Part shown: positions 1,592-14,630 of the stretch, piece after piece
Position numbering within the stretch: position 1 is the stretch's first letter
How the letters are laid out: the number at the start of each line of letters is the position of its first letter
Assembly: GCA_004335835.1 (NCBI GenBank)
Contig: RWJK01001960.1
Coordinates: 1-64,000, forward strand
DNA length: 64,000 bases
Source of the DNA: Scenedesmus sp. ARA3
Taxonomy: Eukaryota > Chlorophyta > Chlorophyceae > Sphaeropleales > Scenedesmaceae
Direction: 5' to 3'
The notes under the pieces: model-generated
The model's input: the letters and a program-made list of their open reading frames with translations, nothing else
The model's database searches: none
Told to the model about the DNA's origin: nothing
Position numbers and translations under genes: made by a program

Positions 1592-2675
1592 ATGGCGACC
1601 AAAGAGGAAAAGGAGCGGCTCGCAAAGGAGCTACAAGACGCTGCAAGGCCTCTTTTCAGTGCTATTGGTCTTGATGAGAAAGTGATCGAGTGAGCGCCGA
1701 TGGGCTGGAGGCGATCCTGGCACGCACTGTACTGCTACAGCAAAACCTAGGCAGCTGGCAGCGTGGCACGCGTGTATGGGGTGATAGAGCACAATTGAAC
1801 GCTTTTTGAGCTATGACACGTTGTAAATGGCTTGCAGGAGCGCCCTGAAGAACATCAAGTTCACTCAGGCACTGGTAGATGTAGTCAAGGAGGCTGGCGT
1901 GACTGAAGGCTGCCCCAAGGCCAAAGGCAACCTGCTGTATACCACAGCCAGCAAGGTCAGTGATGTACCTATGAAAGCTCTTGAATCAAACACAGAGGCA
2001 GCATAGCAGGCACTGGCAGCTGTAGCGCAGCAACCAACCGTTAGGCGCTGTAGCTGCTGCCATAGCAGCTGACTTCTCCTGCCCTTGGTATATGCCACAG
2101 CAAGCGCCTGTTCCTGTTCCTGCAGGGGATGCTGACTCAGCTGCATGTTCTGAGCCAACTTCTGCACGCATGCACGCACGCAACTGGCTCTGATTATTTG
2201 CAGTTTTTTGCATCGGCACTGCTACAGCACGCGTCAGCAGGCAGCCTCTGTGCCTGCATACTGCTTCACCATCACACGCACACGATTGATGCTGCACACC
2301 ATCAGCTGCTCGGTGTGTGCTGCAATTCAGCTTGAGCTGTAGCACCTGCAGCAAGGCATGCAGTGCTGACTCTGCTGTCAGAAATAGCACTACTAATCAC
2401 CTGTCAGCTGGCGCTGGCTGTCGGCTGGCGCTGGTTGTCGCTGTCAGGGGTTTGCTGCACAGCCCTGATTGCTGGACCCTGCTCAGTTTACAGTAACATG
2501 CTACTTGGACAGTATGCTGTACCCGCCGCTGCCGCTGATGCGTGCTGGTGCTGGTGCTATCTCTCATTCTTATTTCATTGTTTGCACCGTTTGATCCTGC
2601 TGCAGCACCCCGCCAATGCGCTGGTGCACAGGCCCATGCTGCTAGATGCCATCCTGGCAGATAAGATCAAGGTGT

Positions 2676-2709
<34 letters not shown>

Positions 2710-3253
2710 CAGCAGCAGGGGCAGCAGTAAAAGAGGCGGCAGCAGCAGCAGCAGCAGGGGCAGCAGCAGGCGCAGCAGCAGGGGCAGCTGAGGCAGCAGC
2801 AGGGACAGCAGCAAAGGCAGCAGCAGGCACAGAGCATGGGCAGCAGCAGGCACAGCAGCAGGGGCAGCTGAGGCAGCAGCAGTCAAACCACCACCAGCAG
2901 CAGCAGCAGCAGGGGCAGCAGCAGGGGCAGGGGCAGCAGCAGGCACAGCAGCCAGGGCAGCAGCAGGTGCAGCAGCAGGTGCAGCAGCCGGAACAGCAGT
3001 TGGGCAGCAGCAGGCGCAGCAGGGGCAGCTGAGGTGTCAGCAGGCATAGCAGCAGGGACAGCAGCAGCAGGGACAGCACCAGGCACAGCAGCAGTTCCAG
3101 CAGCAGACACAGCAGCAGGCACAGCAGGAGAGGCGCTGTGATGTATGGAGGCTACTGCAGCGGTAATGGCACATGGTGGCAGCAGCACCAGGAGCAGCAC
3201 CAGAGTGACCTGTAGCGTACTCCAGCAGAGTAGTGGCAGCAGTCGCAGCAGTC

Positions 3254-3292
<39 letters not shown>

Positions 3293-14151: not shown

Positions 14152-14184
<33 letters not shown>

Positions 14185-14259
14185 GTTTGACTGCCCTTTG
14201 CTACTGCTGTCAGGCGTTTGACTGCTTCCAGTTTCAGCAGCTGGGCTACCTCACAAACC

Positions 14260-14291
<32 letters not shown>

Positions 14292-14630
14292 ACGTTACGC
14301 TTGTGACAGGCGTTTGACCACTTCCAGTTTGAGCGGCTGGGCTACTTCAGTGTGGACACGGTGCAACTGCTGCTGCTGCTGCTGCTGCACGTTACGCTTG
14401 TGGCAGGCGTTTGACCGCTTCCAGTTTGAGCGCCTGGGCTAATTCAGTGTGGATACCAACGGTGCAACTGCTGCTGCTGCTGCTGCTGCTGTTGCATGTT
14501 GATCTTGTGACAGGCGTTTGACCGCTTCCAGTTTGAGCGCCTGGGCTACTTCAGTGTGGACCCTGACAGCAAGCCAGGCCAGCTGGTGTTCAACCGCACG
14601 GTGACGCTCAAGGACTCCTTCAAGAAGTGA
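1592..14630 (+). CDS. QARS1: Glutaminyl-tRNA synthetase, cytosolic type (17 exons)
   Basis: This class I synthetase charges tRNA(Gln) with glutamine. Seventeen exons join in phase to 805 residues, the normal eukaryotic length: 1592-1689, 1838-1955, 2606-2671, 3788-3963, 4666-4828, 5473-5601, 5991-6143, 6904-6993, 8241-8384, 9094-9284, 9837-9986, 10557-10694, 11398-11581, 11927-12114, 12850-13024, 13750-13887 and 14514-14630. The N-terminal GlnRS-specific domain comes first, then a Lys-rich linker. The catalytic core follows, with FPPEPNGYLHIGHAK (HIGH motif, exon 7), RYDDTNPE (exon 8), and LSKRK as the KMSKS equivalent (exon 12). The C-terminal anticodon-binding beta-barrels end in QFERLGYFSVDPDS and FNRTVTLKDSFKK. 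There is no obvious transit peptide. The introns are crowded with partial copies of neighbouring exons; the full-length, phase-compatible copy was chosen each time. The identity is secure; a few junctions could shift. Confidence 0.96.
2672..3787 (+). repeat. CAG-rich QARS intron 3
   Basis: The intron is largely (CAG)n and GGCAGCAGCAGG-type repeats from about 2676 to 3440, and again at 3651-3672. It ends in a more ordinary segment with ACATGTTAC motifs and a GTTACAG acceptor. All six frames stay open because the repeat encodes poly-Q, poly-A, poly-S or their antisense forms. Confidence 0.85.
4432..4591 (+). repeat. Two 5'-end copies of QARS exon 5
   Basis: Before the working exon at 4666, two 40-base copies (4432-4471 and 4552-4591) repeat its first 40 bases almost exactly. 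Each follows its own CCCGCAG acceptor. Both then diverge into intron sequence without a matching donor. Confidence 0.9.
4938..5196 (+). repeat. Two 3'-end copies of QARS exon 5
   Basis: Two copies (4938-5024 and 5110-5196) repeat the last ~87 bases of exon 5 (AELSSQVEALLG ... EKKKKPK). Each is followed by a GTG donor. Neither has an intact 5' part. They lie downstream of the full exon, the mirror image of the 5' copies at 4432-4591. Confidence 0.9.
7606..8170 (+). repeat. Five 5'-end copies of QARS exon 9
   Basis: Five partial copies start near 7606, 7739, 7860, 7981 and 8109, ahead of the full exon at 8241. They encode variants of EYIDHIAEIVSWMGWSPWKV. Most follow a GCAG acceptor and then run into ACATGTCATGTAAC-type intron sequence. 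The repeat period is about 120-130 bases, so each unit covers an intron tail plus an exon head. Confidence 0.92.
8440..8614 (+). repeat. Two 3'-end copies of QARS exon 9
   Basis: Copies at about 8447-8491 and 8568-8614 repeat the exon 9 tail (AVQLIKAGKAFVCHQ, the second degraded at its end). The first retains the CAGGTG donor. They lie downstream of the full exon. Confidence 0.88.
9329..9408 (+). repeat. 3'-end copy of QARS exon 10
   Basis: A near-identical copy of the exon 10 tail (GEATLRMKMDHKN.NPNMWDS.AY) lies in the following intron. It ends ACATGTGAGG where the real exon ends ACAGGTGGG. A weaker 5' copy of the same exon (SKAEIEESRKQGLPPP) lies upstream at about 8830-8890. Confidence 0.88.
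9610..9800 (+). repeat. Two 5'-end copies of QARS exon 11
   Basis: Copies at about 9610-9686 and 9723-9800 repeat the acceptor and first ~65 bases of exon 11 (IKYVQ.P ... WCIYPS.NF). Both then share the intron string that follows. A short 3'-end copy of the same exon with its GTGAGCAG donor lies downstream near 10044-10063. Confidence 0.88.
10275..10495 (+). repeat. Two 5'-end copies of QARS exon 12
   Basis: Two nearly identical units (about 10274-10354 and 10414-10495) repeat the first ~80 bases of exon 12 (LLDVLDTYKPVVWEYSRLNI). They are separated by the same CATGTACTGCCCATTTGTACTG intron block that precedes the working exon at 10557. The unit length is about 143 bases and divergence is very low, so these copies are recent. 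Confidence 0.92.
10695..11190 (+). repeat. CTG arrays and 3'-end copies of QARS exon 12
   Basis: Copies of the exon 12 tail (VTEDHVHGWDDPR plus the GTGAGGCC donor) recur at about 10799-10841, 10920-10962 and 11150-11190. They are separated by (CTG)n tracts of 8-14 units and by repeated GCTGGCAAACTTGTGC units at 11003-11114. Confidence 0.9.
12379..12726 (+). repeat. Two 5'-end copies of QARS exon 15
   Basis: Copies at 12379-12489 and 12614-12726 match the first ~105 bases of exon 15 (YAYPITVTGYSTAPDG ...). Both run into the same in-frame stop (GGNKP then TAA) and share about 100 bases of downstream intron. The unit is about 235 bases. The working copy is at 12850. Confidence 0.92.
13229..13682 (+). 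repeat. Four 5'-end copies of QARS exon 16
   Basis: Copies start at about 13229, 13361, 13489 and 13620, ahead of the full exon at 13750. All encode VRL.DVLF.SEA.DALGD.WL after an AG acceptor and then diverge. A 3'-end copy with donor lies downstream at about 13936-14000. The spacing is about 130 bases. Confidence 0.93.
14101..14460 (+). repeat. Four 5'-end copies of QARS exon 17
   Basis: Copies at about 14101, 14213, 14311 and 14407 repeat (A)F(D/H).FQFE.LGY before the terminal exon at 14514. Each is preceded by a (CTG)n tract and an acceptor. As this is the last exon, only 5' copies are expected, and only those are seen. Confidence 0.92.

Follow-up and report, generated by a model that had tools for sequence, protein, structure and literature searches.

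Exons of several genes in a 64,000-nucleotide (nt) stretch of DNA from the green alga Scenedesmus sp. ARA3 (assembly GCA_004335835.1, contig RWJK01001960.1, positions 1-64,000, forward strand; hereafter, the window), above all those of the cytosolic glutaminyl-tRNA synthetase gene (QARS), are accompanied by partial copies of themselves in the flanking introns. In four genes, we identified 55 such copies on 28 exon sides; the 41 copies in QARS alone bear out a reading of this DNA from sequence only, which had put the number in that gene at 30 or more. Upstream copies contain the 5' part of the exon and downstream copies the 3' part, and copies of the same kind recur elsewhere in the genome. It is likely that segments straddling splice junctions, mostly of about 95-145 base pairs (bp) and some up to 265 bp, were duplicated locally and head-to-tail time and again to form these arrays, with the extra copies apparently being spliced out.

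The copies were sought by iterated local alignment of each exon with its own flanking introns, using a threshold based on 60 shuffles, in QARS (17 exons), IFT81 (17), a DASS transporter gene (4, one of them partial) and a gene that we take to be GCSH (4). All 32 upstream copies contain the 5' part of the exon, and 22 of the 23 downstream copies contain the 3' part, the remaining one, at QARS exon 13, being internal. Thus, 54 of the 55 copies obey the rule and none is contrary. Copies within one array are not independent; counted by exon side, 27 of 27 obey and one is undecided. None of the 55 copies in these genes is a whole exon with both splice sites. In QARS, the exons with upstream copies (5, 8, 9, 10, 11, 12, 15, 16 and 17) are exactly those listed in the sequence-only reading, and all 25 of these copies hold the 5' part. 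Downstream copies, which that reading placed at exons 5-14 and 16, were recovered at exons 4, 5, 6, 7, 8, 9, 10, 12, 13, 14 and 16, with the 3' part present in 15 of 16; exon 4 is an addition, the copy at exon 11 falls below the threshold, that at exon 13 misses the donor site, and that at exon 14 is short. The claim that no copy in QARS breaks the rule stands, with no contrary copy and one internal.

The copies are not due to chance, given that, with 20 shuffles per threshold, only 3 of 492 pairs of an exon and a non-flanking intron reached the threshold, and none of the 76 comparisons of exons with reverse-complemented flanking introns did. Self-comparison of the window yielded 106 direct and 4 inverted matches, nearly all of them local. 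As in tandem duplication, the copies are arranged head-to-tail on the same strand and adjoin the parent exon. For 30 of the 55 adjacent pairs, the unit's intron part reaches a score of 30 or more, which corresponds to the 99% level for unrelated intron pieces of 69 bp (the parts compared are of unequal length, some of them rich in CTG); the duplicated segment thus often visibly crosses the junction. The polarity itself follows almost inevitably from the geometry of tandem duplication, provided that one full exon is retained: a duplication across the donor leaves the spare copy downstream, with the 3' part of the exon, and one across the acceptor leaves it upstream, with the 5' part. The polarity is therefore a mark of local tandem duplication and argues against scattered insertion, but it is no separate proof of selection or of a filter imposed by splicing.

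The window is chlorophyte nuclear DNA, from a genome assembly of 87.27 Mb in 1567 contigs. Over the aligned part, QARS is 98% identical to the protein of Tetradesmus obliquus (P0001) and 91% identical to that of Scenedesmus sp. NREL 46B-D3 (P0003), which places the organism among the scenedesmaceans near T. obliquus. The QARS gene (1592-14630, plus strand), modelled from the sequence and by spliced alignment, consists of 17 exons (1592-1689, 1838-1955, 2606-2671, 3788-3963, 4666-4828, 5473-5601, 5991-6143, 6904-6993, 8241-8384, 9094-9284, 9837-9986, 10557-10694, 11398-11581, 11927-12114, 12850-13024, 13750-13887 and 14514-14630); every intron is of the GT-AG type, and the 805-amino acid (aa) product is free of stops. 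Spliced alignment of an 805-aa protein, P0002, yielded the same 17 exons with zero gaps and none of the copies. Because the longest source contig of P0002 is 3369 bp and the gene spans 13 kb, the source contigs of proteins of this type are very probably transcripts; their source label, 'lgn', presumably denotes Logan assemblies. Likewise, P0121 (707 aa; longest source contig, 2365 bp) aligns without gaps to the 17 exons of IFT81, a 7-kb gene on the minus strand, and includes none of the copies. The P0002 alignment also contained three zero-length 'exons', which we take as aligner artefacts. These correspond to AG|GT sites, an acceptor abutting donor-like sequence, at 5915, 13229 and 13489, an arrangement that resembles recursive splicing.

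The remaining models are less complete. The edge between exons 1 and 2 of IFT81 is uncertain; exon 1 was set at 28921-28998 for the tally (28942-28998 according to the aligner), and the stop codon was appended to the last exon. Spliced alignment of P0148 covers the C-terminal part of the DASS transporter, and the four-exon model of this gene has a partial exon 1 with an arbitrary start. The four exons of GCSH come from ab initio prediction combined with the general structure of the H-protein. A scan of the window against Rfam gave no match at gathering scores.

The 55 spacings between copies range from 94 to 265 bp, with a median of 126 bp; 44 are within 94-145 bp and none is shorter than 94 bp, in agreement with the units of roughly 100-250 bp proposed from the sequence alone. 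Modulo 3, the junction spacings are distributed as 21/21/13 (p 0.31), that is, they are not restricted to multiples of 3. In contrast, in the three exon-internal arrays that we checked (18720-18928, 19670-20744 and 53845-54654), the offsets are multiples of 3 in 11 of 11 matches. Exon-internal duplications thus seem to survive when they are in frame, and junction duplications regardless of frame. Together with the transcript-like proteins, this contrast supports a splicing filter. The array at 19670-20744 looks like ancient ARM repeats. The other two exon-internal duplications, of 102 bp at 18720-18928 and 159 bp at 53845-54654, are both in frame, and the latter repeats a KLLQTGGR-type peptide. 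Further local tandem copies are present at 58000-64000, in a minus-strand gene rich in PAP/EPAP repeats, which lies outside all tallies and outside the exon-internal check.

The copies are in various states of decay. Identity between copy and exon has a median of 89.5% and a range of 74.7-100%; 13 of the 55 copies carry frame-shifting indels and 2 contain stops. Raw frequencies of change at the three codon positions of the copies (0.077/0.075/0.168) suggested coding constraint on the copies themselves, an interpretation that we dropped once the changes were split by branch, which put the strong codon bias on the exon side and left the changes private to copies mildly biased. Specifically, in the 17 arrays with at least two copies, the exon-side changes are distributed over the codon positions as 7/6/20 and include 22 synonymous and 11 non-synonymous ones, and the changes private to one copy are distributed as 34/29/53. 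The exon is constrained, and the copies are nearly free, decaying in a near-neutral manner. The splice dinucleotides are kept in most copies, AG in 28 of 32 and GT in 20 of 23, about as expected at 10% divergence, so the splice sites of the copies have not been purged. These decoys seem to be passed over despite their intact sites, and are likely harmless because each has one splice site and would not be defined as an exon.

The same kind of copy is found across the genome. We sampled the first 10 kb of every 80th contig, obtaining 20 stretches (19% N), in which self-comparison detected 102 direct and 6 inverted repeats, with offsets of 100-150 bp forming the largest group. A first, unmasked tally (n=89) comprised 50 obeying, 8 contrary, 17 whole and 14 internal copies. 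Because many of the non-obeying rows were CAG/polyQ matches or comparisons of one copy with another, the tally was redone with low-complexity masking and with copies of stronger segments dropped. In this refined tally (n=67; exon edges are approximate, being derived from codon statistics), 46 copies obey, 2 are contrary, 13 are internal and 6 are whole, with 27 obeying exon sides distributed over 13 of the 20 stretches. The rule noted in QARS extends to this sample: 46 of the 48 partial copies that touch a boundary obey. When 43 sample arrays were listed against coding segments, most were at the ends of such segments; 5 of the 43 had no coding segment within 350 bp, which indicates that duplications away from junctions occur as well. 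Three arrays of this kind (L023 8090-9855, L015 3968-4192 and L024 8797-9367) are probably intergenic or intronic duplications of similar size. At L024 2594-3400, several copies of a short coding-like unit are the source of one contrary call (of two) and four whole-segment calls (of six). A whole-segment copy with 97% identity (L020 9311-9427 and 9734-9847) is a possible full-exon duplication.

As for unit size in the sample, BLAST self-matches include no direct offset below 75 bp. However, the same setting recovers 0% of spiked-in offsets at 30-50 bp and 40-45% at 60 bp, and a lower size limit read from the BLAST offsets was dropped, given this blindness to short offsets. Tandem Repeats Finder, applied to the sample and the window for periods above 50 bp, reported 2 repeats with periods of 70-100 bp and 20 with periods of 100-150 bp; the mode at 100-150 bp is real, if based on small numbers.

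Evidence from a second genome comes from T. obliquus, where QARS (P0001) is encoded on a 5.8-Mb contig and the predicted protein contains two extra pieces of exon 15 and one extra piece of exon 16. The extra exon-16 piece ends with WLEDLIA, and among the four copies in the window, only the one at 13361 does. The simplest reading is that this copy predates the split between the two genomes and that the arrays are not an artefact of the assembly analysed here. Five of 63 homologous proteins were flagged in a scan for tandem repeats; among these, the Gonium QARS (P0008, residues 122-150) and an IFT81 prediction (P0141, residues 479-497) contain repeats at a 35-aa spacing, which may be related events or faulty gene models.

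Taken together, these observations suggest the following route. A duplication that spans a donor site would leave the first copy to complete the exon and place the second downstream, in the intron; one that spans an acceptor would leave the last copy to complete the exon, with the earlier copies remaining upstream. The intronic copy, half an exon with a single splice site, would probably not be spliced in under exon definition and, free of the reading frame, could decay nearly neutrally. Repetition of the process would build arrays of up to five copies, and introns would lengthen from their ends. The mutational step might be microhomology-mediated repair or slippage, and the splicing filter would account for the missing frame-breaking duplications inside exons. 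In two arrays chosen by eye as clear, a short stretch recurs at the breakpoints, being common to exon, flank and junction, namely, GCCTGCA at IFT81 exon 5 (where the period is 126 bp and the BLAST match extends over about 133 bp) and CTCAG at QARS exon 12. In these hand-picked arrays, the shared stretches fit end-joining or microhomology template switching; a study of small tandem duplications elsewhere reports microhomology at some of them (PMC8355091). The genome may have a high rate of short tandem duplication. The observation with which the sequence-only reading began is thus confirmed, and its interpretation is supported in part: repeated tandem duplication across junctions, the absence of the copies from two transcript-like proteins, the frame contrast and the occurrence genome-wide all agree with it, whereas the polarity, which it had enlisted as well, is not separate evidence for a splicing filter.

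Several observations weigh against this account, or at least against its simplest form. Random placement of duplications on collapsed introns predicts that 53% would cross a junction (with 20-nt margins) and 47% would be internal to introns, but in the four genes, 28 arrays lie at junctions, compared with a single clear duplication confined to an intron and a few others that are weak or CAG-rich. The clear case is a 434-bp tandem duplication of about 76% identity in GCSH intron 3 (40435-41297), found by self-comparison. In all, 13 intron-only matches lie outside arrays (5 in GCSH intron 3, single weak ones in QARS introns 8 and 11 and in IFT81 intron 16, and 5 in the CAG-rich QARS intron 3); the same threshold yields 17 matches of intron parts within arrays already identified, and shuffled introns give none. 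The imbalance may mean that the process favours junctions or keeps duplications there; alternatively, intron-only arrays may be lost sooner or be more difficult to detect. Furthermore, 25 of the 55 intron parts fall below the 99% null (score 30) despite the 89.5% median match between copy and exon, and a simple reckoning puts the expected ratio of intron to exon-part divergence at only about 1.6. The loss of similarity could stem from exchange with the real exon, from intron sequence of low complexity turning over faster, or from filler at the breakpoints. Two of the 48 boundary-touching copies in the sample run counter to the rule (L024 3068-3151 and L027 8712-9164), 13 of 67 are internal, and the unmasked tally had 8 contrary among 58. 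The changes private to copies lean to codon position 3 (53 of 116), which by our own reckoning is the upper end of the expectation for free copies, and stops occur in 2 of 299 changed codons, compared with about 11 expected of purely random single changes. Finally, the status of P0002 and P0121 as transcript products is judged from the size of the source contigs and the source label, not from reads.

The shortage of intron-only duplications against the 53:47 expectation, along with exon parts that often remain similar where the intron parts have diverged, is what would be seen if the exon anchored and fed the arrays, with duplication, or unequal exchange and gene conversion following it, recurring between the exon and its copies, such that junction arrays persist and expand while intron-only duplicates fade. 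This is a serious but distinctly less probable alternative. Some pairs of copies are more similar to each other in the intron part than in the exon part (0.97 vs 0.87 for copies 1 and 2 at IFT81 exon 12; 0.86 vs 0.72 for copies 2 and 3 at QARS exon 8), which conversion by the exon would not produce; moreover, detection is biased toward arrays with a conserved exon, and the ancestral intron lengths are guesses. A still more ambitious version, appears to us slightly more doubtful still: an exon-anchored process would make or keep tandem duplications preferentially at junctions, renew their exon halves by copying from the real exon and, through the accumulation of half-exons with one splice site, be a main cause of long introns in this lineage, and the spliceosome would rely on exon definition to distinguish the real site from as many as five near-identical decoys.

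Recurrent junction duplication with removal by splicing fares better against the other explanations. A function for the copies as alternative or mutually exclusive exon ends, translated in some transcripts, would be in keeping with their mostly intact splice sites, the three such pieces in the T. obliquus gene model and the dearth of stops among changed codons. Nevertheless, by construction of the unit, upstream copies come without a donor and downstream copies without an acceptor; the frame-shifting indels and the spacings unrestricted to multiples of 3 are hard to reconcile with translation; neither P0002 nor P0121 contains a copy; the private changes are near-neutral; and the inclusion in T. 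obliquus is a gene prediction. We regard such a function as improbable. An assembly artefact, with repeats collapsed or mis-joined, is more improbable yet: gaps do exist (N at 34851-34900, apart from those in the sample), and the array upstream of QARS exon 12 is 96-98% identical, but copies differ from their exon by up to 25%, the piece ending with WLEDLIA is shared with the long T. obliquus contig, and obeying copies occur in most of the sampled stretches. Least probable of all are introner-like elements or retro-copied exon fragments scattered among introns. The presence of short, insert-like units in many introns is reminiscent of such elements; however, in the four genes the copies adjoin their own exon and are in direct orientation, as the non-flanking and reversed controls indicate, and they often carry intron sequence across the splice site.

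Events of this class are already known. In potato, a tandem duplication that crossed an intron-exon boundary created an intron, and the acceptor, the branch site and the 5' part of the exon were copied, much as here a duplication crosses the boundary; there, the extra copy stays exonic, and the new intron uses a cryptic donor, whereas here the existing intron swallows the copy (PMC4974935). The same study mentions an 83-bp duplication within an intron (PMC4974935). Unlike the potato case, the duplications described here recur at many exons and at both junctions, without any visible gain of an exon or intron: the spliced alignments of P0002 and P0121 are free of gaps, and the three T. obliquus pieces are present only in a predicted protein. 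Small tandem duplications that stem from repair of breaks or nearby nicks are likewise short and direct, some with microhomology, as far as excerpts of that work describe them; compared with these by sequence alone, the arrays and the 95-145-bp units are features of the present case (PMC8355091).

In whole-exon tandem duplication and in mutually exclusive exons, too, exon sequence is repeated in neighbouring introns. Here, in contrast, the copies are half exons with one splice site, and whole-segment copies are absent among the 55 of the four genes and make up 6 of the 67 in the sample, with 4 of these 6 belonging to a single L024 array. Among the listed titles and abstract openings from open-licence literature, including that on green algae, we found no description of recurrent, two-sided, decaying half-exon arrays across a genome. 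Thus, the class of event is known already, and the scale and form seen here were not found in the literature searched.

Collapsing the arrays reduces the mean length of the 38 introns in the four genes from 506 to 306 bp; by gene, the means drop from 664 to 304 bp in QARS, from 311 to 244 bp in IFT81, from 550 to 425 bp in DASS and from 666 to 523 bp in GCSH. As a further point against the account above, three of the 16 QARS introns contain no arrays and are long anyway (mean 638 bp; one is CAG-rich), so that arrays are not the sole cause of intron length. A published comparison gives a mean intron length of 462 bp for T. obliquus, against 230 bp for R. subcapitata, 302 bp for M. neglectum, 284 bp for C. 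zofingiensis and 270 bp for C. reinhardtii (PMC5966456). The excess of T. obliquus over its relatives is of the order that the arrays account for in the four genes measured here. Duplication at intron ends would be a concrete, transposon-free route to intron growth. The arrays also provide a natural setting in which to test how a splice site is chosen among near-identical ones, and they can lead gene prediction astray, to judge from the T. obliquus QARS model. A long CAG-rich tract occupies 2676-3305 in QARS intron 3, and CTG/CAG runs flank several arrays and may aid duplication.

The individual arrays of QARS, all on the plus strand and identified by local alignment, begin with a single downstream copy of the 3' part of exon 4 (4096-4186), an old one with 75% identity. 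Exon 5 has two upstream copies of its 5' part (4432-4591) and two downstream copies of its 3' part (4938-5196), whereas exons 6 and 7 each have one downstream copy of the 3' part (5666-5719 and 6206-6277). Exon 8 is flanked by three upstream copies of the 5' part (6550-6827) and two downstream copies of the 3' part (7073-7243), and exon 9 by five upstream 5' copies with a spacing of 119-133 bp (7608-8171) and two downstream 3' copies (8448-8614). Single copies flank exon 10 (5' part, 8829-8918, upstream; 3' part, 9323-9405, downstream), and two copies of the 5' part precede exon 11 (9609-9786). Upstream of exon 12 are two copies of its 5' part with a 141-bp unit and 96% identity (10275-10493), the array with CTCAG at the breakpoints, and downstream are three copies of its 3' part (10800-11184). 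The sole internal copy, downstream of exon 13 (11745-11809), corresponds to positions 98-162 of the 184-bp exon. Exon 14 is followed by a short, 27-bp copy of its 3' part (12176-12202), with a score of 38 against the threshold of 36. Exon 15 is preceded by two copies of its 5' part at spacings of 237 and 235 bp (12378-12723), and two such pieces are included in the T. obliquus gene model. Four copies of the 5' part of exon 16, spaced at 128-132 bp, lie upstream of it (13229-13682), the one at 13361 being the likely counterpart of the extra piece in P0001, and one copy of its 3' part lies downstream (13944-14000). Finally, exon 17 has four upstream copies of its 5' part with a spacing of 96-111 bp (14103-14453).

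The arrays of the other three genes were identified in the same manner. In IFT81, on the minus strand, one copy of the 5' part precedes exon 5 (27409-27473; 126-bp unit, with GCCTGCA at the breakpoints), two copies of the 5' part precede exon 12 (24624-24887), three copies of its 3' part follow it (24029-24350), and one copy of the 3' part follows exon 16 (22390-22458). The plus-strand DASS gene has one downstream copy of the 3' part of the exon ending at 35188 (35270-35307) and two upstream copies of the 5' part of the last exon (37000-37234). GCSH, on the plus strand as well, has two downstream copies of the 3' part of exon 3, with a 100-bp unit (40269-40408), and two upstream copies of the 5' part of the last exon (41370-41528).

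Additional arrays were recognized by eye outside the tally. In a plus-strand gene that we take to be FkbM-type methyltransferase-like, an exon near 16650 is preceded by two copies of its 5' part (16279-16504), and an exon ending near 17820 is followed by about four copies of its 3' part (17866-18339). The region 21400-21530 shows, by eye, a degraded likeness to the 3' end of this gene (18971-19067), about 2.4 kb away and past the gene presumed to encode the ARM repeats. At the edge of the window, which cuts a minus-strand gene, the segments 1-458 and 480-728 contain several copies of one exon part and one copy of another, and by eye, these also appear to obey the rule.

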